Source of the DNA: Halovivax cerinus | GTDB taxonomy: Archaea; Halobacteriota; Halobacteria; Halobacteriales; Natrialbaceae | Assembly (NCBI RefSeq): GCF_024498195.1 | Contig: NZ_CP101824.1 | Span: 3,658,001 to 3,722,000 of the forward strand | Length of the DNA stretch: 64,000 nucleotides | Direction: 5' to 3' | Part shown: positions 21,815-45,377 of the stretch, in pieces | How the letters are laid out: every line of letters starts with the position of its first letter | Position numbering within the stretch: the stretch's first letter is position 1 | The notes under the pieces: generated by a model | Told to the model about the DNA's origin: nothing | The model's input: the letters and a program-made list of their open reading frames with translations, nothing else | Databases searched by the model: none | Program-made: the position numbers and the translations under genes

Positions 21815-23962
21815 ATGGCGATCGAGATCTCTACCCACACGGATCCCCACGGGCTGCGGCTGTTCGACTCGAACGAACAACGCCGCCTATCCCTGCGTAC
21901 CGACCGCGAGGTCGAACCCCAGCAGGTGTCGTCCGACCTCTTCTGTTTCCCCGTCGATACTGCCTGTCGAATCGAGACGACGTCACTCGTGCTCGATCAA
22001 CGGTATCTGGCGAACGTCCACGACCGGACGGGACAGGCGATCACGATGCTCGAAGACGACGGCAGCTACGATCTGACGGACGCCCTGCAGTTCGTGGGTC
22101 TCGACGGTCCGATGAAGGTGTACTGTCGCATCGACGCCCCCGGGACCGTCGAAATCGGGATCAACTCCATCCGATTTTCGTTCGACGAACCGACGTCGGT
22201 CGAGATCGGTGCTCGATCGCTGCACAAACGACCGACCGGTCGGATCACGACGCCGCCGGAACCGACCGAGCTGATGCGAGCCGTCTCGCAACTGACCTCG
22301 GCGCTGAAGACGGAGAGCCCGGAGCGGTCGTGGCCGACCCTCCGAGGACACCCACCGCTGATCGAACTCGGAACGGAGTTCGAGGTACAAACGGAGAACG
22401 AGCCGCTCGATACGGGCGTTCGAATCGAGGTTCCCGCCGACTTCGAACACCCGTTCGTCGTCGCACCCCTCTCGTTTTACCTCGGCGCCGTCGTCACGGA
22501 GGGATCGACGCCAGCAATACACACGGACAGTCGGACGATTCACCTCGGAACGGACCAGCCATTCGAAGACGACGTTGCCAGAACGTTGAAGCACGTATTC
22601 TTCCTCGATTGCCTGGTCAGGACGGAGGGCGTCTATCGATACGACCTTCACGAACGCGACCAGCTGGAGTCGACGCTGCCCTGGGATCTCGCCGACCTGT
22701 ACGATCGGTCGCTGTCGGAGCGACTGGACGCGTACCTCTCGGTTCCGTACGAGACGATCGAGCCACAGGTTCCACGGTGGCCGCTCACCGCTCACGTTCC
22801 GTCGACGCCGGAGAGCGTCGAACTGCTTCCGTTCGTGGTCAACGAACTCGGAATCGTTCGACCGACGGGCGGGACCCGCGATTCGATCGAGACGTCGATA
22901 CCGGACGCGACCGCAGCCCGGTCCGCTCCGACGGTCAGTCGGTCGGCGATCGAGGCGACTCCGGCGTCGGCCGGACCGGATCCACTCGTCCGATCTGCAT
23001 CCCGTTCGCGACGGTCTCCCTCCGAAGCGCCGTCGACGTTCCCCGTCGTCGAACCGGACGTCACCGACGAGTCGATCGAACACGCCTGGTTCGGCGACCT
23101 CGCCCCCAAACACGGCTCGAAGGCCACGATAGAGGGCTATCAGAACCAACTCGAACGGAAGTCGCGAACGCAGCACATCGACATCCTGGTCGTCTGTAAC
23201 GACGCCCGGATGCTGGACGAGCACGACATCTTAGACGAGACGTACGGGACTCGCGATCTGCTTCCGTTCGACGTGACGTCGAAGTTCGGCGTCTCGACCG
23301 ACGAGCTGTCGGCGTTACTCGCCGACGGGGGCTACGACTTCTTACACTACATCGGTCACGCGACCGAGGCGGGTCTCGAATGTACGGATGGTCATCTCGA
23401 CGTACGAACGCTCGAATCGGTCGATATCGGCGTGTTCTTTCTGAACGCGTGTCACTCATACGAGCAGGGACTGGCCCTCTCGCGTCGCGGTGCGTTCGGT
23501 GGCGTGGCGACGCTGGGCGACATCATCAACGAGCACGCCGTCGAATCGGGTGCGTCGCTGGCACGGCTCTTGAACCTGGGGTTCCCCCTCCGCGGCGCGC
23601 TCGAAATCGTCACCGAGTGGACCGTCCTCGGTGACCAGTACCTGATCGTCGGCGACGGATCGACCGACATCGCCCAGTCAGACGGCGGTCCGCCTGCGGT
23701 CGTCTCCATCGACCGATCTGGAACGGAAGCCGTTCTCCACTTTCGGAGCTATCCCGCGAAAGATTTTCAGATCGGCTCCGTCACGTCTCCAAGCCTCTCG
23801 TCGGTCGAACAACTCTATCTGCTCCCCAGACAGGACATCACCGCCCGCGTCGACGACGACTCCCTCGAGAACTACCTGACGTGGACGGAGACACCGGTGG
23901 TCATCGATGGAACGCTCCAGTGGAACGTCGACCTGGGCCTCCCGGCGTTTCTAACCGAGTGA
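21815..23962 (+). CDS. CHAT-domain (caspase-fold) protein
   Basis: The 715-residue soluble protein has a C-terminal peptidase domain of the CHAT/caspase clan. The catalytic pair is visible as His515 in HYIGHAT and Cys546 in FFLNACHSYEQG, followed by GAFGGVATLGDI and a small subunit-like segment. The N-terminal 370 residues look beta-rich and carry no known motif. A Ser/Thr/Pro/Arg-rich linker (about 370-420) joins the parts. No transmembrane helix is present. Start choice is uncertain: ATG at 21797 adds six residues. The gene stands alone, without a gasdermin, TPR or CRISPR partner. Target and trigger are unknown. Confidence 0.82.
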   Translation: MAIEISTHTDPHGLRLFDSNEQRRLSLRTDREVEPQQVSSDLFCFPVDTACRIETTSLVLDQRYLANVHDRTGQAITMLEDDGSYDLTDALQFVGLDGPMKVYCRIDAPGTVEIGINSIRFSFDEPTSVEIGARSLHKRPTGRITTPPEPTELMRAVSQLTSALKTESPERSWPTLRGHPPLIELGTEFEVQTENEPLDTGVRIEVPADFEHPFVVAPLSFYLGAVVTEGSTPAIHTDSRTIHLGTDQPFEDDVARTLKHVFFLDCLVRTEGVYRYDLHERDQLESTLPWDLADLYDRSLSERLDAYLSVPYETIEPQVPRWPLTAHVPSTPESVELLPFVVNELGIVRPTGGTRDSIETSIPDATAARSAPTVSRSAIEATPASAGPDPLVRSASRSRRSPSEAPSTFPVVEPDVTDESIEHAWFGDLAPKHGSKATIEGYQNQLERKSRTQHIDILVVCNDARMLDEHDILDETYGTRDLLPFDVTSKFGVSTDELSALLADGGYDFLHYIGHATEAGLECTDGHLDVRTLESVDIGVFFLNACHSYEQGLALSRRGAFGGVATLGDIINEHAVESGASLARLLNLGFPLRGALEIVTEWTVLGDQYLIVGDGSTDIAQSDGGPPAVVSIDRSGTEAVLHFRSYPAKDFQIGSVTSPSLSSVEQLYLLPRQDITARVDDDSLENYLTWTETPVVIDGTLQWNVDLGLPAFLTE

Positions 23963-27851: not shown

Positions 27852-30512
27852 TTACGGCGTCGTGACTCGAGCGCCTCCGAGTCCGATCCGTTCCGTCGAA
27901 TCGTCGCTACTCGTCGTGTTCCCGTCGTTCGACGATCCACCATCGGTCGCGGCGTCGGTTGTCGACTCGTTGGTCCCGTTGACGCCGAGGATATCCTCCA
28001 GAGTCGTCTCCTCGAACCCGTCGACCTGGATCGACTCACCGTCGTAGACGGCCGGTTCGTCGACGGTCGCGTTCGCCCGGTAGTACGTCTCGTTCGAGCC
28101 GACGATTACCTCGTACGAGCCGTTGGCCGTCACCGCGGTGTCGGTGTACCCCTCGTCCGGCCCGAGACTATTGTCGGTCGCGTACGGGACGGTGATCTCG
28201 AAGCTCCCGTCGCTCGCAACGTCGGCTCCCTGTGAGTAGGTAAACGTCCGGCCGGTGTTCGTCTCGACGGGGAGTCTGACGGTGGCCGTCGCGTTGCTGG
28301 CGTCGACCTCGTCGACGGTGCCCGAAAGCGTCGCCCCCTCGACCCGCTCGAAGCTCTTGACTTCCGAGAACGACTGGCCGGCCTGGGTGGAGACGGTGTC
28401 CTGCGATTCGTGGATGAGCCGGTAGTGTTCCATCCCCTGCGTGTCCTGGAGATATAGTTTGAACAGCTGGGTGTTCAGCATCTGTTCTTGCGAGGTGTAT
28501 TCGGGGCCGGTCCACTGGGAGATAGCGCCGAACTTGGTGAACGCCATCTGGTAGTCGATCATCACGTACGGCATCCGGTTATCGACGTCCTCGGGCGCGT
28601 CGACCGTCACGTTGCCGTTCGCGTCGAGGCGCGGACTCATGCCCGCGTTGATGGCGTCCATGATCTCGTTCGCCGTCTCCTCGCTCGGCGCCTGGAAGTA
28701 CGCCGAGGCGCTCCTGGCGTGTTGCTGGAACGGGTTCGCGTGCGGGATGCGTTCACCCTGGGTCGTTATCAGGTGACCGAAGTCCCACCACGACATCACG
28801 CCGTACGCGCCGTCCGGATAGTCGTAGTCGTGGTCGGCCGGATCGTACGTACCGTAGTAGTCGAGCTCGCTGGCGTTCCCCGCACCGTACAGGTTTCCGG
28901 GTTCCGGCGTGTTCGCTTGCATGTACGCGTTCGAACCCTCCCAGTTGTTTGCAATGGGGTTGACGTCGGCGCCTTCTCCGACACCGACCGCCGTCGCCGG
29001 GGCGATCTGGGGTGCGAACGGGACGAAGAGGACGAGGAGGACGAGGACGATCGTCAGGACCTGATAGGCTTCGACGTCGCGGACCGTCTCGGGGGGATGT
29101 ACGTCGATCATCCCGATGACCTGGACGACCGTGTACCCGGAGAGGATCGCGACGGGGAGGATGAAGTAGTACCAGAACCGAACCTGGGTGGCGGCCATGC
29201 TCGTCAGGAACAGCCCCCAGACGATCATGAGGGTGTGTTCGGCGCGGTAGCGTTTCCCGACGAACGGTCTGAGCGCCAGGAGGACGAGCCCCCCGACGAA
29301 GAGGTACAGGCCCATGCCGAACTCCCGTCGTGCCTGCTCGACGAAGTCCCCCGGCGGTCGGGCCTCCTGAACGGTCCCGGCGGTCACGGAGGGATCGATC
29401 GGCGTGAGACGCGAGGTGACGTTCGAGACGATCGTCGAGTACAGATCGGGGAGGACGACTGCGAGGACGACGAGGCCTGCGACGGCGAGACCGACGATCG
29501 CGGCCGGATAGTAGGTACGTTCGATCCCTCTGGCGTCCCACTCGCGGGCGAGCCAGGCCATGAAGACACAGCCGACGGCGACGAGTGCGGCGAGGATCGG
29601 CTGGAGGAGACCGTAGTTGGCGACTTTCAACGTATACACGTCGGCGAAGACAAAACCGATAATGGCCGGAATACCGAGGCCGATGGCGCCGACGAACGCG
29701 ACGTGGTCGGGGGAGACCCCGCGCACGAAGTCGATCGCGAGGTGAACGGCGAAGAAGACGCCGAGAATCCCCACGAAGACGACGCCCGGTGGCCACACCA
29801 TGAGGTAGAGGCTGATCGCGAGGCCCGCGAGGGTGGCGTACAGGGCGGTCGCTCTGAGCGGTTCGAACTCCCTCGAACGGACGAGTTCCCAGACGGGTCT
29901 GTCGCGTTCGGCCGACCGCAGTGCGAGGGCCGTGGTGAAGACGGCGAGTGCCATGAACAGTACCTCCGCCGCGGTGTGGTCGAACGCGCCCGTCATCGTA
30001 CGCGCCAGGAACGACCCCGGTGAGAGCGCGAGGATGAACACGGCGACGAGGCCGGCGAACCGGTTGCCGTCGCTCACTCGCGTCGCGATAGCGTAGACGG
30101 GGAGCGCGACGAGTACGGCCAGCACCGGCGGGACGATCAGGGCGGCGAGTTGCACGTCGGCCTGCGTCGGGTTCCCGAGGCCGATGAGCAGGGCGACGAA
30201 CGCGGTTATCTGGTCGTAGACGGTGCCGAACTGGCCCGTGTAGTTCCCCACGGGGAACCCGGTGTAGACGTCGAACGGCATCGTCCACGGGAAGTTCTCG
30301 ACGGTCCAGTCTGTCGTCCGCCAGTGATAGTACGAGTCGATGCCGGAGAACGCGGGCGCGTCGGCGTTTCTGAACCGATCGAGGTTGATCAGGCGCGTCC
30401 ACAGCATGAAGCCCATCAGGACGCCGAGGACGGCCAGGTGACCGTATCGCTCCGCGAAGGCGACGACGTCCTCGGCCTGGAGGGCGCGGGCGTCTGCAGT
30501 CTCGCTACTCAT
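27852..30512 (-). CDS. aglB: Dolichyl-phosphooligosaccharide-protein glycotransferase AglB
   Basis: The 886-residue STT3-type oligosaccharyltransferase transfers lipid-linked glycans to Asn in N-x-S/T sequons of S-layer and other surface proteins. About 13 membrane segments occupy the first 500 residues. An external-loop acidic motif is GIDSYYHW near residue 55, and TGAFDHTAAE corresponds to the second. The catalytic WWDFG motif is at about residues 573-577. A Gly/Asn/Ser/Asp-rich C-terminus ends the protein. The frame is open nine codons upstream, but ATG at 30512 (MSSETADARAL) is the usual start. It opens a large glycan gene island. Confidence 0.95.
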   Translation of the reverse strand: MSSETADARALQAEDVVAFAERYGHLAVLGVLMGFMLWTRLINLDRFRNADAPAFSGIDSYYHWRTTDWTVENFPWTMPFDVYTGFPVGNYTGQFGTVYDQITAFVALLIGLGNPTQADVQLAALIVPPVLAVLVALPVYAIATRVSDGNRFAGLVAVFILALSPGSFLARTMTGAFDHTAAEVLFMALAVFTTALALRSAERDRPVWELVRSREFEPLRATALYATLAGLAISLYLMVWPPGVVFVGILGVFFAVHLAIDFVRGVSPDHVAFVGAIGLGIPAIIGFVFADVYTLKVANYGLLQPILAALVAVGCVFMAWLAREWDARGIERTYYPAAIVGLAVAGLVVLAVVLPDLYSTIVSNVTSRLTPIDPSVTAGTVQEARPPGDFVEQARREFGMGLYLFVGGLVLLALRPFVGKRYRAEHTLMIVWGLFLTSMAATQVRFWYYFILPVAILSGYTVVQVIGMIDVHPPETVRDVEAYQVLTIVLVLLVLFVPFAPQIAPATAVGVGEGADVNPIANNWEGSNAYMQANTPEPGNLYGAGNASELDYYGTYDPADHDYDYPDGAYGVMSWWDFGHLITTQGERIPHANPFQQHARSASAYFQAPSEETANEIMDAINAGMSPRLDANGNVTVDAPEDVDNRMPYVMIDYQMAFTKFGAISQWTGPEYTSQEQMLNTQLFKLYLQDTQGMEHYRLIHESQDTVSTQAGQSFSEVKSFERVEGATLSGTVDEVDASNATATVRLPVETNTGRTFTYSQGADVASDGSFEITVPYATDNSLGPDEGYTDTAVTANGSYEVIVGSNETYYRANATVDEPAVYDGESIQVDGFEETTLEDILGVNGTNESTTDAATDGGSSNDGNTTSSDDSTERIGLGGARVTTP

Positions 30513-30689
30513 TGCCCTACAGATTCGGTATCGGATCAATAAGCCTTCTCATCCGGAACCGTTGGTCCTTCTCTCGAAAGCCACGAAACTCACTCTATCT
30601 ATATATTTCAATGCAAAATTAGTAAGTCGTACCACAATCTATTCGGTTTTAATATCGAATAACCAACGAGATTCCGGTTTTTGTCGTCC

Positions 30690-31430
30690 CCCAATCAGTC
30701 GATAGTCCCGACAAACATACCGTGCCGTATTCGCGAGGAGGCGTTCCAGTTCCCTCAGACGATGCTAGGAACGGCGACTCTCGTCGCCGCTGAATCGGGT
30801 GCTCGCGTTTGCGGTTCCGAATGCTTAAGCAGACCGGTTATCACGCTGCGGACGCCGTCATCGCCTACACGCACGGAATGGCGCGGGAACTAAGACATGA
30901 GCGATACCGCGACAAAGTGTACAAACTGTCCCCAAACCGTTGACACCTACCGGCTCCGTCCGACGACTCCAACCGACAAACGGGATAGGACCAACGGCGT
31001 CGTCGGCCGACTCGATAAGGAGAAGGGATTCACACGCCGATCGTGATTGCGAGGCGACTCCCCAACGACGTGGTGTTCCGATTCGTCGCGACGGAGCACT
31101 GCACAATCACGTCGAGACACCATTGGCCGACGAGATCGAACCCGGTTCGGTCCTCATCAGAGGCTATATTGACCACAACGATGTTTCCCGCTAACTAACC
31201 GCCCTCCACCTACTCGTGAAGCCGTCGAAACCAACTGAAGGTTTACAGACGACGATCCTGGAATCACTCGCGTACGGAACGCCGGTGTACGCTTTACCGA
31301 TTCCGACGACAGAGACGACAAGACTGGACTTCGCATAACCGAGTACGGGAGTGACGTCGGTGTGGAGACGAACGCCAATGCTTTAGACGGCCACCGTATC
31401 CAACAGATTAACTAACAAGTTCGGTCATTG
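30690..31430 (+). pseudogene. Decayed glycosyltransferase (GT4 type)
   Basis: Several frames, broken by stops and shifts, each match consecutive parts of the intact glycosyltransferase at 34833. Bases 30821-30940 read MLKQTGYHAADAVIAYTHG, where the intact gene has RLLERAGYLLANDVITYTPS. Near 30984-31031 GVVGRLDKEKG occurs. Bases 31031-31096 read HTPIVIARRLPNDVVFRFVA, then RGYIDHNDVSR to 31194. Bases 31210-31311 read LLVKPSKPTEGLQTTILES, where the intact gene has LLVMASEPTEGLPTTILEA. At least four disruptions are visible. The boundaries are approximate. It no longer encodes a working enzyme. Confidence 0.85.
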
Positions 31431-31449
31431 ATCCGGCGAGTATACGATT

Positions 31450-32285
31450 CCAACACAGCAGACAATCAGTTATATATAGGTCCTCCGTTCCCTCGACGAG
31501 GGAACTGCGGAGAGGCCTTTCGAAGGAGACGAGTCGTTCCTCGTCGATCGGCACTGACGCTAGGACACACGAGCCACTCACGTAGGTGGGAATCGGCCCG
31601 GGAGCGGAACCAATGTGACTGCTTTCCGCCTGACCCCGGAGACAGCCCGACGAGGAGCGCGGCGTACGTGACGGCACCAACGACGAGTCCGACCGTGGCA
31701 CGCAACTGGGCGAGTTTCTCTACATCGAGGCCGGGGCAGACGGCGGAACGCGCCACCGGCCGAAAATCCCGCTGGTATCGCTCGTACAGCGCCTGGTGGC
31801 TGAGACAACAAAGAAACACGGGGCGATCGAGGCCGCGATCCAGCGCGAATACGACCTTTTCTTCTGCTGCTGGAATTTCTGAATCCAATCGGCCACCTCG
31901 CCCCAACCGTCGACGAGAGCAGCTATTAGCACCGATGGTGTCGCCAGGCTGCCCGGTGGACGGGTGAAATTCGTGCACAGCTTGGTCGGACGACGTGCTA
32001 GTCTGCGTCTCCGATCACGGCCTCCGCGAGGGCGGACACACGCTCGACGCATTTCTAGGTGCGACCGATGAACGGGTGCTAGCGGGGACCGTATTTGTAC
32101 TAGACGTTGCCGACACCATCGATCACATCACGCCGCGACAGGCGCCAGTGGAGTCACCACCGCTGGCTGTCGGTGGCGAGTCGAAGGTGATGGGGCGGGG
32201 AAATCCGCCGCGGCGATCCGGGATCACCTGGAGGACCTGGGTACCTCTGAACGCTCGAAACCGCGTTTCTAACCGATTCTTCTGA
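31450..32285 (+). pseudogene. Decayed alkaline-phosphatase-superfamily phosphodiesterase
   Basis: The clearest part (31995-32130) reads LVCVSDHGLREGGHTLDAF, parallel to LLLVSDHGLQDGLHTDEAM of the intact enzyme at 36054. Upstream, 31845-31915 carries REYDLFFCCWNF and, in another frame, IGHLAPTVDESSY, matching the segment before it in the intact gene. Near the 3' end KSAAAIRDHLEDLGT resembles the shared C-terminal 'LEDLGY'. The 5' part (31450-31700) is barely recognisable. Frames change several times. Its order behind the GT pseudogene copies the intact GT-phosphodiesterase pair. Confidence 0.78.
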
Positions 32286-32287
32286 CA

Positions 32288-33628
32288 TCACTTGTATCCA
32301 AGCTTAGCGAGTCGATCCTCGACGACTCCGGAGACGTCAGTCGCGTCGTCGGACCCCCCAGGCCACGGCGGAAGTATCTCGCGCATCGACGCAAGTCGGT
32401 CGGAAGGTACCTCAGCCACGGCGTCGCCGGGGTTTGTGAGCGTGACATCGACATCATCCCCGTGGGACACGAGTAGCTTGTACTCGCCGTCGAAGACGGC
32501 CTTTTTCTCGTAGCCATTGAGACTGCTCTCGAAGAGCAGTTGCCGCTCCGGCGGCACTGATTTTCGAAGGGAGATGCCCGACGTCTCGATCGTGTCCAGA
32601 TCCACGGCATCGAGGATGGTCGGCGCGACGTCGATCAGTGAGACCGGTCCGTCGAGCGGCCAAGATCGGTTGGTCACGAGCGGAACGCGTGCGAGTTCAT
32701 CGTAGGCCGCGCCGCCGTGGTCGACGCAGCCGGTTCCGTCGAAGTGTTCGACGTCGAAGTCGACGTGCTCCCACATCGCCTCGCCGTGGTCGGCTGTGAC
32801 GACGAGGAGCGGCCTTTCATCCAGGACTTCGTCAAGCTGGTCGACGTAGCGAGCGATCGCGTCGTCAACGTACTCGATCGATGCGCGATAGAGTCTGCGG
32901 CGGTGATCGCGGTAGCGTTCGCACGCTTCGTCACAGTCCGTCTCGCTGTTGTATCGCCAATTTTTGATCTCCTCAATCGTTTCGTCGACGTCGTGGCGGT
33001 CCCAGTACTCGGCCGGTGGATCGACCGGGATGTGGGGATCGGCGAGATGGAGCAGGGAGAACGTCCGTTCGCGACCGTTGATCCACCTAGCGTGATCACC
33101 GAGGACGTCGTCTGCGTTCGCGGTCACCGAGTGGTAGAGTTCATGAGTGGCAAACCTACCCGAGAGTGCGACGAACGGCGTATCGTGGCCGAATCCGCCG
33201 TAGGTCTCGTATCCCGCGCCTGCCAGAGCCTCCGTGACCGTCGTTCGGTCATCCGGGAGCGTCGGAGGTAGTGTCAAACCCTCTTCTGGTTCGTCAATTT
33301 GCTTCATCGCGCCGTGCTCGTTCGGGTACATGCCCGTTACGAACGAGGACATCGCCGGAAACGTCCAGGAGGCCGGTGTGATCGCGTCGGTCCGGTTGTA
33401 ATCGGTGAGAAAGGGAGTCAGTTCGGGCGTGATGTGGTCGGCCCGGAGCGCATCGACGACGACGCAGACAATGTGGCGTGGCGCATCGGGAGACGTGTTG
33501 GTCCGTGGAAGCCGTTTGGTGGCGAAGATTTTGTTGGCTTCCCTGGTCTGATGCCAGTCGTACGGGACGGCGAGAAGCCGTTTCGCTCCCGGCGGGAGCC
33601 GGTCGATCAGCGTCCGCTTGACGTTCAT
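32288..33628 (-). CDS. Sulfatase-like alkaline-phosphatase-superfamily enzyme with Thr nucleophile
   Basis: The 446-residue soluble protein has the superfamily metal sites: VVVDALRADH near residue 57 and VVTADHGEAMWEH near 300, with a VDHGGAAYDE segment. In true sulfatases the nucleophile is a Cys or Ser in C/S-x-P-x-R, modified to formylglycine; the aligned position here is Thr89 in SWTFPAMSSFVTG, without the Arg. A phosphodiester or phosphotransfer reaction is therefore likelier than sulfate ester hydrolysis. No signal peptide is evident. It ends RLAKLGYK. ATG at 33628 is chosen over an upstream frame extension. It is divergent from the aglG-like gene with 92 bases between. Confidence 0.85.
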   Translation of the reverse strand: MNVKRTLIDRLPPGAKRLLAVPYDWHQTREANKIFATKRLPRTNTSPDAPRHIVCVVVDALRADHITPELTPFLTDYNRTDAITPASWTFPAMSSFVTGMYPNEHGAMKQIDEPEEGLTLPPTLPDDRTTVTEALAGAGYETYGGFGHDTPFVALSGRFATHELYHSVTANADDVLGDHARWINGRERTFSLLHLADPHIPVDPPAEYWDRHDVDETIEEIKNWRYNSETDCDEACERYRDHRRRLYRASIEYVDDAIARYVDQLDEVLDERPLLVVTADHGEAMWEHVDFDVEHFDGTGCVDHGGAAYDELARVPLVTNRSWPLDGPVSLIDVAPTILDAVDLDTIETSGISLRKSVPPERQLLFESSLNGYEKKAVFDGEYKLLVSHGDDVDVTLTNPGDAVAEVPSDRLASMREILPPWPGGSDDATDVSGVVEDRLAKLGYK

Positions 33629-33720
33629 TGGCGGTGAATAGGATGGGACCGACTTGGAAGTGTCGCACTGATCGGACACGAATACGAACGCTTTTCCACG
33701 CCCTACGGAATGTGTCCATA

Positions 33721-34650
33721 ATGAAGGTCTCCGTCGTTATCTGCACCTATTCACCGGATCTGTACGACGATTTTTGCGAGGCCGTCGAGAGTGTCCTTGA
33801 ACAGGACTACGACACGGTCGAAGTCGTCGCTGTGATCGACGGGTCCGATTCCGTGGGTGAACGTGTACGACGTGACTGGGACGACCACGACAGCGTGGCT
33901 ATCGTCGAAAACGACGAGACTATCGGACTCTCGGCGAGTCGGAATCGTGGGAGCGAAGAGGCGACTGGTGACGTGATCGCGTTTATGGACGACGATGCGG
34001 TCGCCGCCGAAGGATGGGTTCAGGAATTAGTACGGACGTACACTGAGACTGACGTCGAAGCGGTCGGCGGGAAGATGCTCCCGCTGTGGGTCGCCGAAGA
34101 ACCGTGGTTCCTGCCCGCAGAATTTTACTGGCTAGTCGGCGTGACGCACCGTGGTTTTCCCGCCGAAGGTCCGGTTCGTAACACGTTCGGCTCGAATATC
34201 TCGTTTCGCGCTACAGTCCTCGAGGAACTCGATGGGTTCGACGAAACGCTCGGCCGAAAAGGGAGCGGCCAAGTCCAGGGGGAAGAAACTGAACTTGCAT
34301 CGCGTGTGAGACAGGAACTCGACGGCACGCTCTATTACACGCCGGACGCTGCCGTCTACCACAAGGTGTTTTCGTATCGGACACAGCCGCTGTGGTTAGG
34401 AAAACGGGCGTTTTGGCAAGGCTATTCGAAGAGCGTAATGGAACAGCGACTCTCGGAACCGTCTCCGACAGAATCTGCCTTTCTACGCCAACTGCTCTTC
34501 TCGTTCGTCCCGTCACGACTTCGTGGCCTCGTTTCGGACCCGTCTCGCTCGTCGCTAGCCCAATTACTGATGCTTTTCGTGCTGACTGGTCTCGTCGGGT
34601 TCGGGTATCTTTACGGAACTGCTCGTCGCTTTTTACAGAGTGAAGCGTAG
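33721..34650 (+). CDS. aglG: AglG-like family 2 glycosyltransferase
   Basis: The 309-residue protein has a GT-A domain (VSVVICTYSPDLYDD at the N-terminus, IAFMDDDAVAAEGW with the DxD-type acid cluster near residue 82, GKMLPLWV, TFGSNISFRATVLEELDGFD) and a C-terminal membrane-anchoring hydrophobic segment (about 280-300). The order of motifs, including EFYWLVGVTHRGF and WLGKRAFWQGYSK, follows Haloferax AglG, which adds hexuronic acid to the dolichol-linked N-glycan on the cytosolic face. The transferred sugar here is inferred. The presence of aglM (UDP-glucuronate synthesis) in the same island supports it. Confidence 0.85.
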   Translation: MKVSVVICTYSPDLYDDFCEAVESVLEQDYDTVEVVAVIDGSDSVGERVRRDWDDHDSVAIVENDETIGLSASRNRGSEEATGDVIAFMDDDAVAAEGWVQELVRTYTETDVEAVGGKMLPLWVAEEPWFLPAEFYWLVGVTHRGFPAEGPVRNTFGSNISFRATVLEELDGFDETLGRKGSGQVQGEETELASRVRQELDGTLYYTPDAAVYHKVFSYRTQPLWLGKRAFWQGYSKSVMEQRLSEPSPTESAFLRQLLFSFVPSRLRGLVSDPSRSSLAQLLMLFVLTGLVGFGYLYGTARRFLQSEA

Positions 34651-34832: not shown

Positions 34833-35972
34833 ATGTCGACGCCTGACGACGTTTGTGTCGTCACTCATCCAATCGGGTCATCTGCAGACAGCCACGCCGA
34901 AACGTTAACTCGGATTATCGGTTCCATCACATCCGTCTCCCTCGTGGCCGTCTGGATTTCCGACGAAGCCTCGTTGATTGATGAGTACGACATCACCCGT
35001 GTTAGCGCGACTGCTATGAACGGCAACGTGGTTCAGAATGCGGTTCAGTTCATTTTAAACCAGTTCCGGATGGCGCTGATTCTCCGACGTCGAGACGAGT
35101 CGACGGTTCTCTTCTTTGGCACCACTGCGTATCTACTCCCAATTCTCGTAGCCAGAACGAGCGGAAAACGTGTCATTCTCGAGCCCCGTGGAGACGTCCC
35201 GTTGACCCTTCGCTTACAGTGGGAACGCCGAATGCCGGATCCATTGGCAGGCGTGCTCGCCGGACTGGTTCGATTACTCGAACGCGCCGGCTACCTGCTC
35301 GCCAATGACGTGATCACGTACACGCCATCGATGGCGCGCGAACTGGATCTGGATCCAACATCGGAATCGGTACACCCAAACGGGGCCAGGTACGTCGATC
35401 TGGATCGTTTCTACCCGCGAACGCCGTTCGAAGATCGGGATCGGGTCGTTGGGTATCTCGGTCGACTCGACGAGGAAAAAGGGATCCGAACGCTCGCCGC
35501 CGTCGCGAAGCACCTGCCCGAGGACATCAGGTTTCGGTTCATCGGCGATGGCGACCTCCGAAATTGGCTCGAGACCGAGCTCGAGTCGGAACGGGCTGCT
35601 GGCCAAGTGGAAGTGACCGGTTGGGTCGACCACGAAGACGTGCCGTCGGAACTGAGTTCCTTGCAGTTGTTGGTGATGGCGTCGGAACCAACCGAGGGCT
35701 TACCGACGACGATCCTTGAGGCGATGGCCTGCGGGACGCCGGCCTACGCGACGTCGGTCTCGGGCGTGCCGGACGTCGTGAAGGAAGGGGAGACGGGATA
35801 TCTCATGGCAGAGATGGATCCAGAGTCTGTTGCGGCGGAGATCGCATCCCTCCTCGATAGTGATGAACTCTCGTCGACGAGCGCGAACGCCCGGGCGCTG
35901 ATTACGTCATCGTACGACTTCGACGCGGCCAGGGACCGATACGAGGAGATCTTTTCCACCCTGGCGGCGTGA
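34833..35972 (+). CDS. Glycosyltransferase family 4 protein
   Basis: The 379-residue GT-B enzyme retains the C-terminal nucleotide-sugar domain pattern: VVGYLGRLDEEKGIRTLA near residue 206, FRFIGDGDLRNWLE, VTGWVDHEDVPSEL and the E-x7-E motif in SEPTEGLPTTILEAMACGTP around residue 290. The donor and acceptor are unknown. The N-terminal half is weakly conserved, as usual. It is followed by the phosphodiesterase gene at 36054 on the same strand. A decayed copy of this gene pair lies upstream at 30.7-32.3 kb. Confidence 0.88.
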   Translation: MSTPDDVCVVTHPIGSSADSHAETLTRIIGSITSVSLVAVWISDEASLIDEYDITRVSATAMNGNVVQNAVQFILNQFRMALILRRRDESTVLFFGTTAYLLPILVARTSGKRVILEPRGDVPLTLRLQWERRMPDPLAGVLAGLVRLLERAGYLLANDVITYTPSMARELDLDPTSESVHPNGARYVDLDRFYPRTPFEDRDRVVGYLGRLDEEKGIRTLAAVAKHLPEDIRFRFIGDGDLRNWLETELESERAAGQVEVTGWVDHEDVPSELSSLQLLVMASEPTEGLPTTILEAMACGTPAYATSVSGVPDVVKEGETGYLMAEMDPESVAAEIASLLDSDELSSTSANARALITSSYDFDAARDRYEEIFSTLAA

Positions 35973-36053: not shown

Positions 36054-37028
36054 ATGACGCTGGTGGTACTGGGAATTGACGCACTGGATCCGGATCTCGT
36101 TGATCCCGAGCACCACCAAGCACTCACACTCGACCGGTACGAGTCCATCGAGACCATTCCGAGCATGACGGGGGAACCGAGTACGCACGAACTCTGGCCA
36201 ACGATCATAACCGGCTGCAGTCCCGACGAACACGGTCTAAAACTCGAGGACGGCGTTGCGTGGGAGCATCCACTCCTCCGAATGGCACGTACCGTCGCGA
36301 CGTATACGGTGCCGGATACGATCCAGACGAGAGTTGGCGCGTGGTTGCTCAACAACACGTCGGAAGATGCCTTCCGTGTCCCAGCGACGTACTACGTCGA
36401 ACACGGTCTGTCGACGGTTTTCGATTCAGTCTCTGCGAAGGCGATCGGCATCCCGAACTACGTCACTAACCCAGACCGGGAGGATCGGGAACACCGTATT
36501 CGCCGGGAGATGGGGTCGCTGTTCGAACGCAATCCCGACACCCAAGGCGGTCACACCTCCTCCGACGTGACTGAATTCTACGAGCGGTGTATGGAGATGA
36601 TTATGATTCGGACAGCTCGCATCCGACGGGCAGTTCGCAGTCGCCAATTCGAACTCGTCTTTGGATACACGAGTGGACTCGATCTTATCGGACACGTCTC
36701 TCACGATCGACCGGAGATGCAAGAACAGGCGTACGCTGAAGCGAACGACTTCGTCGTGGAACTCCTGGACGACCTCGATGAAACGGACGATCTGTTGCTC
36801 GTCAGCGATCATGGTCTGCAGGATGGATTGCACACAGACGAAGCGATGGTTGCCAGCACGGATCCCGAACTCATTGACGGAATCGGGAGTGTGACGGACG
36901 TTCGATCGGCCATCGAAGGAGAGCTCAACCGCGTTGATCACCAACCCGAGCCCCCCTGGACGGAGCAGGGATCGGTTGAACCGTCCGAACGAGTATCACA
37001 GCAACTCGAAGATCTCGGGTATATGTGA
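36054..37028 (+). CDS. Alkaline-phosphatase-superfamily phosphodiesterase/nucleotide-pyrophosphatase-like protein
   Basis: The 324-residue cytosolic protein starts VVLGIDALDPDL (metal Asp9). The aligned nucleophile is Thr44 in STHELWPTIITG, matching the NPP-type 'T...P...TG' pattern. Further sites are LDLIGHVSH near residue 210 and LLVSDHGLQDGLH near 250. It should hydrolyse or transfer phosphodiester groups, perhaps on nucleotide-sugars or lipid-linked intermediates, given its place between glycosyltransferases. It ends VSQQLEDLGYM, sharing the tail of the sulfatase-like proteins of this island. A decayed homologue lies at 31450-32285. Confidence 0.84.
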   Translation: MTLVVLGIDALDPDLVDPEHHQALTLDRYESIETIPSMTGEPSTHELWPTIITGCSPDEHGLKLEDGVAWEHPLLRMARTVATYTVPDTIQTRVGAWLLNNTSEDAFRVPATYYVEHGLSTVFDSVSAKAIGIPNYVTNPDREDREHRIRREMGSLFERNPDTQGGHTSSDVTEFYERCMEMIMIRTARIRRAVRSRQFELVFGYTSGLDLIGHVSHDRPEMQEQAYAEANDFVVELLDDLDETDDLLLVSDHGLQDGLHTDEAMVASTDPELIDGIGSVTDVRSAIEGELNRVDHQPEPPWTEQGSVEPSERVSQQLEDLGYM

Positions 37029-37086: not shown

Positions 37087-38481
37087 ATGATAGCAAAACC
37101 CAACATCATCTGGCTTACGCTAGATAGCCTGCGTCAAGACCACACGACGATGGGCAGCTACGATCGAGAGACGACCCCCAATATCCAATCGATAGCGGAT
37201 GGTTCAGATGGGATCGCCTTCTCGTCATGTTTCTCCCACTCTCGGGCATCCGCAACGTCGATCCCGTCGATACTCAGCGGCACGTACCCGTCGAGACACG
37301 GTACGTACTACGCGGATCGGTCGGGATTTCCGGACGAACTACCACTCGTCGCAGAACTACTACAGGATGTAGGCTATCATACCGCTGCCGTTTCCAATAA
37401 CGCGTATGCGAGTGAATTAACCGGTCTCGAGCGTGGATTCGACGATTTCACGCTTCTCGGGACGACGCCTTTCGATCTCCTGAAAAGTGCCGGCGTTCGA
37501 TCGGTGGCAAAATACATCGCAAATATCCGTCGTCATTCGGTGGGATTCGAGACAGATCTGCACGCTCACTCCGCCGCGTACTTGGTCAACGAAGTCACCG
37601 AACGGCGCATTCGTTCTGCGTCGGAGCCGGTTTTTCTGTACGTTCACTACAACGAAACCCACCGAGGATTCTATCCGCCGCTTCCGTACCTCGATCGGTT
37701 CACCGACGGGCTAGATATTTCACCCAGAGAGGCAGCCTCGATTGCGATGGACATCCACCACAACCTCGTAGAAATCGTCGCGAACGGATGCGAACTGAGT
37801 GAGACAGAGCTAGCTGCACTCGAAGCAATGTACGACGGTGAAATCGCGTATACGGACGATCGCGTCGGTGCCCTCTACGAAACGATTCAAACTTTGCTAG
37901 GCGAGACGATCATCGTCATCACCGCCGATCACGGTGAGCTATTTGGCGAGGAAAGTATGCTCGCGCATAAGTACAGTATGCACAACGCCGTACTGAACGT
38001 CCCGATGGTCGTCCAGGGTATCGAGGGCCTCACCGATGAGGGTCCGATTCAGCATTCGGACGTTATTCGAACATTGTTGGAAGTGGCTGGCGCCAGGACG
38101 GAAACCATTCAAGGGGTCGATCTCCGAGAGGAACAGCGTGAGTTCGCGATCAGTCAGTCGCCGCCGGGGACTCTGGACCCCTTACTCGAACACAACGCGT
38201 CATACGACAAAACGAAGTTCCCGACGGAGCCTTACTCGGTGTGTCAGAACGGGCAGTTCAAATACATCGATCGGTCGGACGGACCGCATCTGTATCGCCT
38301 TCCCGACGAAACGACGAACGTAGCAAGCGAACACCCAGATGCCGTCGAACAGATAGGTGATTTCTTATCATATTGGCTAGAAACTGAGGGCGAACGGATC
38401 GGGTCTGGTCAGGAGATCACCCTGGACGGTAAGACACAATCACGATTGGCTGATCTGGGATACTTAGACCATGAGATGTGA
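37087..38481 (+). CDS. Sulfatase-like enzyme with Ser/Thr at the nucleophile site
   Basis: The 464-residue protein begins KPNIIWLTLDSLRQDHTT, the first metal site of the sulfatase clan, and has IVITADHGELFGEESM near residue 280 and MVVQGIEG-type strands after it. The nucleophile region SRASATSIPSILSGTYPSRHG lacks C/S-x-P-x-R; Ser55 (or Thr57) is the probable nucleophile. No export signal is seen. It ends SRLADLGYLDHEM. ATG at 37087 starts directly at the conserved domain; upstream frame overlaps the previous gene. It is 58 bases downstream of the phosphodiesterase-like gene, probably in one transcript. Confidence 0.85.
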   Translation: MIAKPNIIWLTLDSLRQDHTTMGSYDRETTPNIQSIADGSDGIAFSSCFSHSRASATSIPSILSGTYPSRHGTYYADRSGFPDELPLVAELLQDVGYHTAAVSNNAYASELTGLERGFDDFTLLGTTPFDLLKSAGVRSVAKYIANIRRHSVGFETDLHAHSAAYLVNEVTERRIRSASEPVFLYVHYNETHRGFYPPLPYLDRFTDGLDISPREAASIAMDIHHNLVEIVANGCELSETELAALEAMYDGEIAYTDDRVGALYETIQTLLGETIIVITADHGELFGEESMLAHKYSMHNAVLNVPMVVQGIEGLTDEGPIQHSDVIRTLLEVAGARTETIQGVDLREEQREFAISQSPPGTLDPLLEHNASYDKTKFPTEPYSVCQNGQFKYIDRSDGPHLYRLPDETTNVASEHPDAVEQIGDFLSYWLETEGERIGSGQEITLDGKTQSRLADLGYLDHEM

Positions 38482-41351: not shown

Positions 41352-41507
41352 AGGGCCGATTTCCCGGAGATTGACCATGTAGGTTTCGATAATAAGAACA
41401 CGCCCAGCGTCCAAATTCGATAGCCGTTAGATGAGACGTACAATCGGTTTGAGATGGAAGTCCAGGGTGCGGTATGAATAAATAGCCAGAATACCGTGTA
41501 CACCATT

Positions 41508-42407
41508 ATGACTGATCCAATTTGTGTCCTGGCCCTCGATGCCGCTGATTATGAACTCGTGAAACATTTTAATTGTGAAAATATACTCCAAACAAATCAC
41601 AGATCGATTGAGGTTTTCTCTCATGAATACGATGTTCCGCAAACAACCGAAATCTGGCCAACAGTTGCTACCGGTGTCGGGCCAGCGGATCACGGACTGT
41701 CGACTGACGTTAGGGAGTGGGATAGCCAAACACTTCGGTACCTATCTATTTTCACATCATATCTCCCGATGGGTGTCCGAAAAGCGCTTGGACGCATTAT
41801 TGAAGGAAGGGGTGCAAACCGAACGATCCAACGTGTTGCAGATGATGATCACATATTCGATGAGGCCTATGGGTGGCCAGGACTTACCGACGCAGACCAC
41901 CTTCGCAAAGCTTGGAAGTGGTGTACTGAGGCAGAGGCTGGAAATCTGACTACAAAGACGCTTGATCGGCGACTTCGAGCTCACACTGGCCAAGAATTTG
42001 GGTGGTTAGTTTCGATGAGCAGGACCGATACAGCCATTATTGGTGTTCACTCTCATGTGCTTGATGTCGCTGGCCATTTATATGCAAACCAGCCGGACCT
42101 ACTGCAAGAGGTTTATAGATGGGTGGACGATTTGGTTGGATTACTTCGGGCAAATCTTGACAAGCTCGTTATATTATCCGATCATGGTATCCAGAACGTG
42201 ATCTGTGATGATAGTGATTTAGGGAATCACTCGTGGCGGGCAATGATTAGCGTTGATGGTGTTTCAGGGGCACTCCCGAAATCCGTGTATGATGTTCGCA
42301 AGTGGCTAGAGGCAGAATCAACACCGGTAGCATCACCCGATGAACAGCATATCGATGTAGGGCCAGCCCGTAAGCACCTCTCCGAGCTGGGATATCTTGA
42401 CGAGTAA
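41508..42407 (+). CDS. Alkaline-phosphatase-superfamily phosphodiesterase-like protein
   Basis: The 299-residue protein is a divergent homologue of the one at 36054. It has CVLALDAADYELV (metal Asp11), Thr46 aligned as nucleophile in PQTTEIWPTVATGVGPADHG, LDVAGHLYANQPD and VILSDHGIQNV. It ends ARKHLSELGYLDE, the island's common tail. ATG at 41508 is preferred to a GTG at 41496. The gene is AT-rich like its neighbours and divergent from the glycosyltransferase at 40215. It probably acts on phosphodiesters; the substrate is unknown. Confidence 0.8.
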   Translation: MTDPICVLALDAADYELVKHFNCENILQTNHRSIEVFSHEYDVPQTTEIWPTVATGVGPADHGLSTDVREWDSQTLRYLSIFTSYLPMGVRKALGRIIEGRGANRTIQRVADDDHIFDEAYGWPGLTDADHLRKAWKWCTEAEAGNLTTKTLDRRLRAHTGQEFGWLVSMSRTDTAIIGVHSHVLDVAGHLYANQPDLLQEVYRWVDDLVGLLRANLDKLVILSDHGIQNVICDDSDLGNHSWRAMISVDGVSGALPKSVYDVRKWLEAESTPVASPDEQHIDVGPARKHLSELGYLDE

Positions 42408-42431: not shown

Positions 42432-43859
42432 TCAAATATTGGTAGCGATTTCAAGCGTTTTTGATCTAATCTCATCCAACAGTATAAATAGGATACTAAA
42501 GTAAACTAACGCACCGAGTCCGATCAGTAGAAGCGTGTTGATGACGTTCGTAGATGGAAAAATTACCTCAAACAAGATAACAACGGCACCCATAATTATT
42601 GCTGCTGTGATCTGTTTGGCCACCCCGTATATTGGAAACGAACTGCTGACAAGTGAACTGGCCATTTGCCAACTAACCAATACACTAAGACATGTTGATA
42701 AAACGGTTGCCATCGCTGCTCCGAGGCTACCGTATGTTGGAATTAGAATGACATTCAATACAATATTAGTAATTAAGAAAATTATATTTATTCTGAATGT
42801 TAGGTCTGGCCTGTCAAATCCGTCAATTACAGCATGTACTTGCCCATCGTATGCTCGAAGAAGTGCAACAATAACTAATAGAACGAGTATAAATTGGCCT
42901 TCGGTGAACTTTGGCCCATAAATCGTCAATACTGAATCACCTAAAAGGAGTGCCCCGACAATTCCTGGAATAGGAAGCAAACCGGCGTAAAGCATGCTCT
43001 CGGAGAGTAGTTCCCTCACACGATCGGTTTCGTCACTGATAATTAAACTCGACACCTCTGGGAATAGATTTTTCTGAATTGAATTCGCTAACAGGACGAA
43101 CGTCATAGCGAGAGTCCAAGACACATTATATATACCTATTACAGAATTTGAAACAAAAACACCCATAATTGCAATATCCATCCAGGTAAATGCCTGTGAT
43201 TTCATCACCCCGAGGACGGAATATTTGGCGAACGAAACAATATCTACAAAGTTTTGCTTTCTCGGAATCGTAGGATTTAGGTCAGTACGACTGAGCAGAT
43301 AGATGGCCCCGACTATTGTCATCAGGGCAAGGCTAGTAATCATCCCAATCATTAGTCCAGTTATGCGGAAGCCGACGAAGACGAGACCAACTTGGAAGGC
43401 AACGCGCATCGTTCGCTCTAATGCATACAGTCCGTTCGAAATGTCGACACGTTGATAGCCGCGAAGGATTTGACTAACCGTACCACTTGCAAGATAGTTC
43501 ATTCCGAATAGGACCGCAATGTACACTACATACGGTCCACCAATGTAGGAGTTGACTGTCCCTCTAAAAAGGAAGAGCATTCCAATTGCGAATACAGTAA
43601 TCGTGGTTTGAAGTACAAACGTTGCAGTAATTACTTCACCATCATTCTCACCTTCACTGATGCGCTTGATCGCAGCCTGTGTAATGCCGATATCACATAT
43701 TAGCAACCATTTAATAACCGAAATAACGAGCGCAAATACGCCTAGCGGAGCTGGTCCAAGTGTACGGGCAAGATAAATCGTTCCAAGGAAGCCAGCAATA
43801 GTCGTAATAATATCAGCGGACCACGAGAAGAATATGCGTTGTGTGAGACTCTTATTCAT
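42432..43859 (-). CDS. Polysaccharide/oligosaccharide flippase (Wzx/AglR-like)
   Basis: The 475-residue integral membrane protein has about 12-14 predicted helices and the MATE/Wzx N-terminal pattern MNKSLTQRIFFSWSADIITT followed by YLARTLGPAPLGVFALVIS. It probably flips dolichol-linked glycans to the outside for AglB, as AglR is thought to do in Haloferax. The frame continues 22 codons upstream, but ATG at 43859 begins the conserved region. AT-rich. It is convergent with the phosphodiesterase-like gene, only 24 bases apart. Confidence 0.88.
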   Translation of the reverse strand: MNKSLTQRIFFSWSADIITTIAGFLGTIYLARTLGPAPLGVFALVISVIKWLLICDIGITQAAIKRISEGENDGEVITATFVLQTTITVFAIGMLFLFRGTVNSYIGGPYVVYIAVLFGMNYLASGTVSQILRGYQRVDISNGLYALERTMRVAFQVGLVFVGFRITGLMIGMITSLALMTIVGAIYLLSRTDLNPTIPRKQNFVDIVSFAKYSVLGVMKSQAFTWMDIAIMGVFVSNSVIGIYNVSWTLAMTFVLLANSIQKNLFPEVSSLIISDETDRVRELLSESMLYAGLLPIPGIVGALLLGDSVLTIYGPKFTEGQFILVLLVIVALLRAYDGQVHAVIDGFDRPDLTFRINIIFLITNIVLNVILIPTYGSLGAAMATVLSTCLSVLVSWQMASSLVSSSFPIYGVAKQITAAIIMGAVVILFEVIFPSTNVINTLLLIGLGALVYFSILFILLDEIRSKTLEIATNI

Positions 43860-44000
43860 CTGGGTTACACCATAGTCCAGACGGATCGAGTAGAAGAGGT
43901 AACTTCTTTTTACCCAGACTCCCAAATTTCAAATGTGTAGAAGGGGAAGCGTTTTTACTTTTTTGTGTTTTATTGTATTTCAAAACAATTATTGAGTTCA

Positions 44001-45377
44001 TTACTTCAAGTACCCTAGTTCTTTCAATCTGGAATTTAACTCGTCACTGATCTGATTACTCCCGTGATCCGATTTGATATCTAGTCGTTGTTCGAACGCG
44101 TCCATTTTTTCCGCTAGTTCCGCTGGCCCGGTAGAAGTAGTGACCGTATCACTGTCGCCACGAAGGTCGTACCACGTGTCAGTCACCTCTGCGCCGATAC
44201 CCCGACGCACAAGTTTCCACGGAAATGCTCGAACCCGAAGTCGTCTGCAACTTGGGTCTAGATCCGCCACGTGAGTCCCTCGATGAGCAGAACACGCACA
44301 TACCGGTTCTGTAGACTGTTCCTTACCTAACACTTTCCCCCGGAATTTTTCCACTAGATCTTCTTCGTTGTCAGAAACAGCAAGTAACGAAGGTGCAAGG
44401 TTAATCAACGATACCTCTGTGGATATCTGGTCCGGTTCGACACCATTTCCTAAAAATAGCAATGGAACATGTAGTAGTTCTTCGAGCATCTCGGGTCCGT
44501 GCGTGAACGTATCGTTGTATTCCCCAAATAATTCACCGTGGTCCGAAATTATCGCGACAGTCGTCGAATCCAGATCGATTCCTTGAATCAGTTTCTGTAA
44601 ATTAGTATCCAACCTATGTATCTCCTCGTCATACAGGTCAACTAGCGTTTGGACCTCCTGTTCTTTCAGCGACCCAGATTTTGTTACTAGTTTATCGTGA
44701 AGTGAGGCCATTTCCTCAGGTGCTATACGAGTGTCAGAAAATAGTCCATGATAATCGTCCGGGGGATAGTAGGGAGTGTGTGGTCCCATTAGGTGCACCC
44801 AGACGAAGGTTGATTTCTCTCGATTTATGGCGGTCTGAGCTTGCTGTACCGCGGTAGCATCGCGGTCTGGTGGACGGTTAAGTTGTGTCTTGCCAGACTC
44901 GCCACCGGATTCTGGTTTTAGTTTGTCATCTACCCATTTTAACGTTCGAAACGTGTGTGAGGAGTGCGGAAGTCGGTCGCTAATCAACCGGCGAATCCTG
45001 TCTGATATCGAAGAGGAGTGGTACAGGTCAATATATTCATCAAATCCCCTATCAAAATTGTACTCTGAAGTAAGCCAGCCATTTTCGTGAATTCCAATTG
45101 TTTGGCGGCCCGTTCGTTGATATGCTTCGGGGAGCGATGGTCTATCAGGGGACAATGGGCCATAGCCACCATATTCGAGCGGATAAGTAGATGTCAAAAA
45201 AGAAGTTACTGATCCGAGAGTGAATCCAGCGGTGGAAAATGCGCGTTCGAAGGTCATTCCTTGTTTAATAAGTCCGTCCAAAAATGGAGTTGTCTCACGC
45301 TCATATCCCATCGCAGAAATGTGATCTGCACGTAAAGAATCGATCGAGATTAAGAGTACATCGTTCTCTGGAGCCAT
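44001..45377 (-). CDS. Sulfatase-like enzyme with Thr nucleophile
   Basis: The 458-residue protein starts NDVLLISIDSLRADHISAMG (metal Asp13), with AIISDHGELFGEYND near residue 275 and THGPEMLEELLHVPL after it. The nucleophile region AGFTLGSVTSFLTSTYP places Thr53 where sulfatases have the formylglycine Cys/Ser, and the following Pro and Arg are missing. No signal peptide. It ends SRLKELGYLK. GC is intermediate. It lies just upstream of the flippase gene on the same strand (141-base gap) and may be co-transcribed. Confidence 0.84.
   Translation of the reverse strand: MAPENDVLLISIDSLRADHISAMGYERETTPFLDGLIKQGMTFERAFSTAGFTLGSVTSFLTSTYPLEYGGYGPLSPDRPSLPEAYQRTGRQTIGIHENGWLTSEYNFDRGFDEYIDLYHSSSISDRIRRLISDRLPHSSHTFRTLKWVDDKLKPESGGESGKTQLNRPPDRDATAVQQAQTAINREKSTFVWVHLMGPHTPYYPPDDYHGLFSDTRIAPEEMASLHDKLVTKSGSLKEQEVQTLVDLYDEEIHRLDTNLQKLIQGIDLDSTTVAIISDHGELFGEYNDTFTHGPEMLEELLHVPLLFLGNGVEPDQISTEVSLINLAPSLLAVSDNEEDLVEKFRGKVLGKEQSTEPVCACSAHRGTHVADLDPSCRRLRVRAFPWKLVRRGIGAEVTDTWYDLRGDSDTVTTSTGPAELAEKMDAFEQRLDIKSDHGSNQISDELNSRLKELGYLK

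Follow-up and report, generated by a model that had tools for sequence, protein, structure and literature searches.

The gene clusters around aglB in Haloferax and Halorubrum vary in glycosylation-gene content among close relatives and are shaped by lateral transfer (PMC5867893, PMC6011602). In the available portions of these two papers, in which the word pseudogene does not occur, the clusters are compared by gene content, gene trees and sequence identity. The aglB gene of Halovivax, so far as these sources can be compared with it, likewise sits in a glycosylation cluster of variable content; judging by the titles and abstract openings of the papers listed, we found no literature on the present Halovivax locus, and none combining Halovivax with AglB. 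Here we describe this locus within a 64,000-nucleotide stretch (the window) of the 3.90-Mb, single-contig genome of Halovivax cerinus.

The window aglB gene (27852..30539, minus strand) encodes an oligosaccharyltransferase with Pfam AglB_core-like and AglB_L1 domains, and serves as an anchor common to the congeners, with 63-72% amino acid identity over the main match in four other genomes of the genus and DNA matches in the same order. Beside it, broken coding sequence of a glycosyltransferase (GT) and a phosphodiesterase (PDE) is spread over several frames at 30690-32285, which a sequence-only reading had recognised and tblastn with intact genes confirmed. The GT piece comprises the C-terminal ~two thirds of a GT4 glycosyltransferase (30708..31450, plus strand), with the GT4 part preserved from about residue 105 onward. 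It carries frameshifts and stops: 3 of the 255 codons compared are in-register stops, and alignment to the congeners G029 (Halovivax asiaticus) and G032 shows six internal gaps relative to both, none of them a multiple of three. Two further long gaps, at the ends, come from the absent start and from where the supplied stretch stops. The GT4 parts of G029 and G032 align to one another without a gap. Convergent with the GT4 remnant lies a piece missed by the sequence-only reading, the last ~40 residues of a polysaccharide flippase (31567..31699, minus strand; 82-83% DNA identity to G032 and G029), the intact G032 gene of which matches Pfam Polysacc_synt_3. This piece reaches ~60 residues by tblastn, running past the joint; the DNA alignment gives 31567-31699. 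The PDE piece is the C-terminal half of a type-I phosphodiesterase (31696..32260, plus strand, placed by codon projection), beginning at about residue 151, with one internal in-register stop, four single-base losses and the native stop kept.

A DNA search of the family, covering 125 genomes including that of the window, returned matches in 7 and none in 118. By far the strongest outside the host genome came from G029 and G032, in each of which GT and PDE match separately: the GT and flippase tail share 71-72% identity over 0.90-0.98 kb (72% and 71%, respectively, for the GT remnant), and the PDE remnant 74-75% over ~0.6 kb. Both genomes are broadly colinear with the window from 12.4 kb, across aglB, up to 30557, apart from a stretch at about 25.4-28.0 kb that has no match. 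Past 30557, the GT piece, the PDE piece and the sulfatase end follow in order, separated by congener steps of ~1.5 to 5.4 kb that are absent in the window. In G032, these steps hold the start of a GT2-GT4 fusion, most of the flippase, a methyltransferase, two glycosyltransferases and the PDE start, together with sulfatase-like/PglZ-like, glycerophosphotransferase-like and nucleotidyltransferase genes.

Each joint can be read against the congeners, from which the length of DNA lost in the window lineage is inferred. At the left joint (30558..30707), the aglB upstream region runs into the GT4 middle: the blastn match to G032 ends at 30557 (16950 in G032), and the body of the GT remnant begins at 30708, where G032 has ~1.5 kb extra consisting of the GT2 domain and the first ~104 residues of the GT4 part. 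The middle joint (31690..31699) fuses the flippase interior to the PDE interior, which are 5.2-5.4 kb apart in the congeners; GT and PDE are separated there by 4995 bp (G029) and 5217 bp (G032). The right joint (32261..32291) brings the PDE 3' end against the sulfatase 3' end, in place of 4.3 kb between PDE and sulfatase scar in G032 and 3.0 kb in G029. Because the cuts in flippase and PDE both fall within coding sequence, the middle joint is a deletion in the window lineage, and GT and PDE were therefore not neighbours before it. Judged from these joints, the adjacency of the two remnants is secondary, because the pieces were fused at deletion points. In the alignment to G029, the flippase match runs 9 bp (31690-31698) into the PDE match, and in that to G032 ~40 bp; the 9 bp are perhaps microhomology at the deletion joint, a reading made unsure by the longer overlap with G032. 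As to gene structure, GT2 and GT4 form one 770-aa open reading frame in G032 (L042:4041-6353; Pfam PF00535 and PF00534) and at the matching place in G029, which is 94% identical, and lie in separate reading frames or apart in the window and in G008, G009 and G033.

The remnant thus has the same flanks as the congener island, with aglB on the left and the sulfatase (or its scar) and a GT2 on the right, and among the copies found its closest relatives are the orthologous genes of that island. The GT piece combines lesions with a loss of coding constraint; the PDE piece has lesions and a truncation, and retains a constrained-looking codon-position pattern. We therefore interpret 30708-32260, with high confidence, as a scar left by a resident glycan-assembly island, linked to AglB, that G029 and G032 still carry, and not as a copy of the pair at 34.8-37.0 kb. 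In these two genomes, the island runs as aglB, GT2-GT4 fusion, flippase, methyltransferase, two GTs, PDE, further transferases and GT2. In the window lineage, it would have lost its function and been reduced in size by two or more deletions, probably three, that left the GT4, flippase and PDE tails side by side, with the sulfatase-GT2 module retained and a separate GT-PDE pair lying downstream of it; in the congeners, the island would have been retained and the sulfatase lost. The scar is most likely without function, because the GT is frame-broken and the remaining PDE half lacks a metal ligand and the nucleophile.

It is improbable that the island was never resident and that a short, already truncated fragment recombined in from a G029-like strain. 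Glycan loci do recombine, as the same-site GT2 genes of G029 and G032 in different clades illustrate, and no island was found in G030 or G031. However, the remnant differs from the congener DNA by 25-29%, which resembles the 23% of aglB and is what vertical descent predicts, and the scar abuts the sulfatase, on its right, at the place where the congeners bear a sulfatase scar.

The resident reading is matched by reciprocal traces in the congeners. The intact sulfatase-family gene of the window (32288..33679, minus strand; Pfam Sulfatase) has a 68% amino acid counterpart beside aglB in G031, and the following intact, aglG-like GT2 (33721..34650, plus strand) is sister to the same-place G031 gene with an SH-aLRT support of 98. 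G031 is further away, with an AglB identity to the window of 67% compared to 72% for G029 and G032, and has aglB, sulfatase and GT2 contiguous, with ~100 bp between the aglB and sulfatase matches. The island was looked for in G031 and G030 and not found. Just before its second GT2, G032 keeps a scar of the last 37 residues of the window sulfatase (70% at the amino acid level; 111 bp at 78%), and the scar in G029 is shorter, with 33 bp at 85%. An island scar in the window and a sulfatase scar in the congeners together make it most likely that the ancestor that the window species shares with G029 and G032 had both, probably in the form of the island together with the sulfatase-GT2 module; its full content and the order of the later events can be drawn only by inference. 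Alternatively, the island may be an insertion common to only three of the five genus genomes, because it was not found in G031 or G030. The second GT2 genes at the same position in G029 (g29 28395) and G032 (g32 30039) belong to different clades, which, in these sister species, suggests local gene replacement.

The sequence-only reading had taken the remnant and the intact downstream genes for one pair that moved or was duplicated as a unit. The likeness behind this proposal is real: the intact GT (34833..35972, plus strand) matches 30818-31302 in two frames by tblastn, with 52% identity over 71 aa and 32% over 96 columns (E 3.8e-24 against the 1.7-kb stretch); the sole match of the intact type-I PDE (36054..37028, plus strand) is 31992-32177, with 37% over 62 aa (E 1.3e-6 against the stretch and 5.8e-5 against the window). 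GT precedes PDE in the same order and on the same strand in both places, as that reading had described, and directly adjacent GT-PDE pairs occur in 7 of 34 loci, as well as in G033 and G009. At the DNA level, blastn between the stretch and the neighbour pair gave one significant match, of 77 bp at 77% in the GT (E 7e-12), and none in the neighbour PDE, which, for a copy of this pair, comes close to the absence of nucleotide similarity beyond generic motifs that the sequence-only reading had itself named as refuting. Moreover, the remnant is nearer to the congener genes at the same aglB-flanking site, to which it is orthologous, a flippase piece lies between its GT and PDE, and these two are ~5 kb apart in the orthologous island.

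Phylogenetic analysis further separates the copies. In the GT tree (37 rows), the remnant groups with G029 and G032 (SH-aLRT 97) and the intact GT4, which is not the remnant source, with G033 (96; 63% identity). In the PDE tree (40 rows), the remnant falls with G029, G032 and two Halococcus sequences (clade a, SH-aLRT 99), and the intact PDE, 33-34% identical to the congener PDE and likewise not the source, in the other main clade b of 34 rows, 33 others included (SH-aLRT 99). A joint clade of remnant and intact PDE is rejected (p-AU 0.00025). For GT, the two are not nearest relatives, and their joint clade falls short of formal rejection (p-AU 0.061) because the remnant is a very long branch; its row is long, damaged and of odd composition. 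Both trees omit L100, which duplicates G029; to be included, hits had to reach E 1e-60 for GT and 1e-20 for PDE, and the PDE topology test was run without the second PDE at 41496-42407. The remnant and intact copies thus appear to have separated before the Halovivax genus, with no duplication as a unit. On these trees, such a duplication is ruled out for PDE and highly improbable for GT, and as a whole, whether by duplication or by two transfers of the pair with an upstream copy now decaying, we give it hardly any chance. The agreement in order and orientation follows from the GT-then-PDE arrangement being widespread in haloarchaeal glycan clusters. A relocated intact copy of the remnant genes in the same genome was sought and none was found: the remnant DNA retrieved itself and the 77-bp match, the congener GT retrieved only the 34833 gene at E 1e-40, and the congener PDE retrieved the 36054 gene and two remnant pieces, with no other intact copy.

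The decay had been taken as ongoing, and as a sign of recent glycan switching. With G008 as outgroup, the GT remnant branch carries 42, 49 and 35 changes at codon positions 1, 2 and 3, respectively, compared to 7, 5 and 31 on the congener branch (chi-square p 1.5e-6). A simple mixture puts the unconstrained share of the remnant branch at 0.76 (bootstrap 0.44-1.29), a value that partial saturation of third positions may have inflated. Changes spread so evenly contradict recent decay, which is rejected for the GT, and the GT decay is, by its codon-position record, old; only the polarised test is clear, as plain pairwise codon-position counts of GT remnant against aglB give p 0.054. The PDE remnant has a constrained-looking pattern of 0.141/0.152/0.462, and may for that reason have died later than the GT. 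The two remnants differ (p 0.0027); nevertheless, asynchronous decay is only suggestive, because the comparisons with aglB give p 0.054 and 0.073. Five intact-gene controls were computed and aglB alone was used in the tests; the control at 21983-23224 has an odd codon-position pattern, perhaps from a wrong frame. Of the recent S-layer glycan switching once proposed, switching at the aglB locus thus stands as history, and its recent timing falls for the GT.

The intact genes downstream do not all share one history. The window GT2 is sister to G031 and the window GT to G033, and the history of the GT therefore differs from that of the GT2; the GT2 tree was built without L081 and L100, dropped as duplicates, and without hits under 220 bits. 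Import of the whole GT2-GT-PDE trio from a G033-like donor is rejected for the GT2 (p-AU 3e-5 for grouping with the G033 GT2). The nearest group of the window PDE is not G033, and a grouping with G033 is neither found nor rejected (p-AU 0.083); it is possible that the intact GT and PDE arrived together as a pair. A scar of these two genes behind the GT2 of the congeners was discarded as a candidate, the search giving only short tblastx pieces. Further along the current cluster, 37087-38481, 41496-42407, 42432-43925 and 44001-45377 match other sulfatase, phosphodiesterase or flippase profiles. The G+C content is 43-49% at 38-46 kb, compared to 54-60% on the left (34-38 kb) and ~65% on the right (47-48 kb), and this low-G+C region looks as if imported. 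Altogether, we tentatively propose, as a possibility somewhat short of even, that the Halovivax aglB locus evolves by reciprocal loss, in which a composite ancestor held two alternative glycan modules beside one oligosaccharyltransferase and each daughter species kept one module while the other was reduced to a scar. In this view, the GT-PDE pair would be a small transferable cassette added behind the resident GT2.

That the two enzymes work together cannot be drawn from the remnant; separate support comes from co-clustering among 34 PDE-bearing loci of a GTDB genome collection that excludes the host genome. A strong GT, defined as over 300 bits within the locus stretch examined, is present in 26 of these 34 related, and hence not independent, loci: directly adjacent in 7, further upstream on the same strand in 18 and on the other strand in 1, so that GT precedes PDE on one strand in 25 of the 26. 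The remaining 8 have no strong GT, one of them (L082) with only 117 bp of upstream sequence. Within the family, a GT is found at E 1e-40 in 13 of 125 genomes (in G072 weakly); 6 of these 13, and no other genome, have a PDE at E under 1e-40. PDE accompanies GT, not the reverse, and the 7 GT-bearing genomes with no PDE at that threshold count against a joint function. A functional linkage is nonetheless plausible from the shared clusters in 26 of 34 loci. In such a pathway, the GT would add a sugar to a lipid-linked glycan, with the PDE acting on the cytoplasmic side to transfer or remove a phosphate-linked group.

The intact PDE resembles type I phosphodiesterase / nucleotide pyrophosphatase (Pfam PF01663), scoring 34.7 bits against a cut-off of 23 and showing an NPP-like fold, and the conserved positions are in place. 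Residues D9, T44, D210, H214, D252, H253 and H260 are invariant in 22 sequences, and we take them to have the metal and nucleophile roles of their NPP counterparts. The predicted model begins its first strand at residue 3, which would leave no room for a signal peptide. Structural similarity search with this model matched Xanthomonas NPP (2gsn, 7mw8) and other alkaline-phosphatase-superfamily enzymes, with identities of 10-16% and a query TM-score of at most 0.46 among the best 50 of 432 matches, so that the fold search would place the PDE in the superfamily only. A sequence-profile search for a solved relative gave none at E 0.01.

The remnant is real and ordinary in kind. Variation of haloarchaeal glycan clusters is already known; the present case corrects a tempting inference in that pseudogenes lying side by side need not have moved together. 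An older form of the glycan-switch reading is retained, supported as history by the mirror scars; its link to the S-layer, drawn from the known role of AglB and adjacency to aglB, is putative, as is the change of glycan itself. Matching scars in sister species make the direction of change readable, with a rough order in time, and argue that species with different clusters descend from one that held both. Compared to the Haloferax and Halorubrum clusters, as far as the available portions of those reports describe them, the Halovivax locus differs in that a scar and its mirror in the congeners reveal how the content changed.
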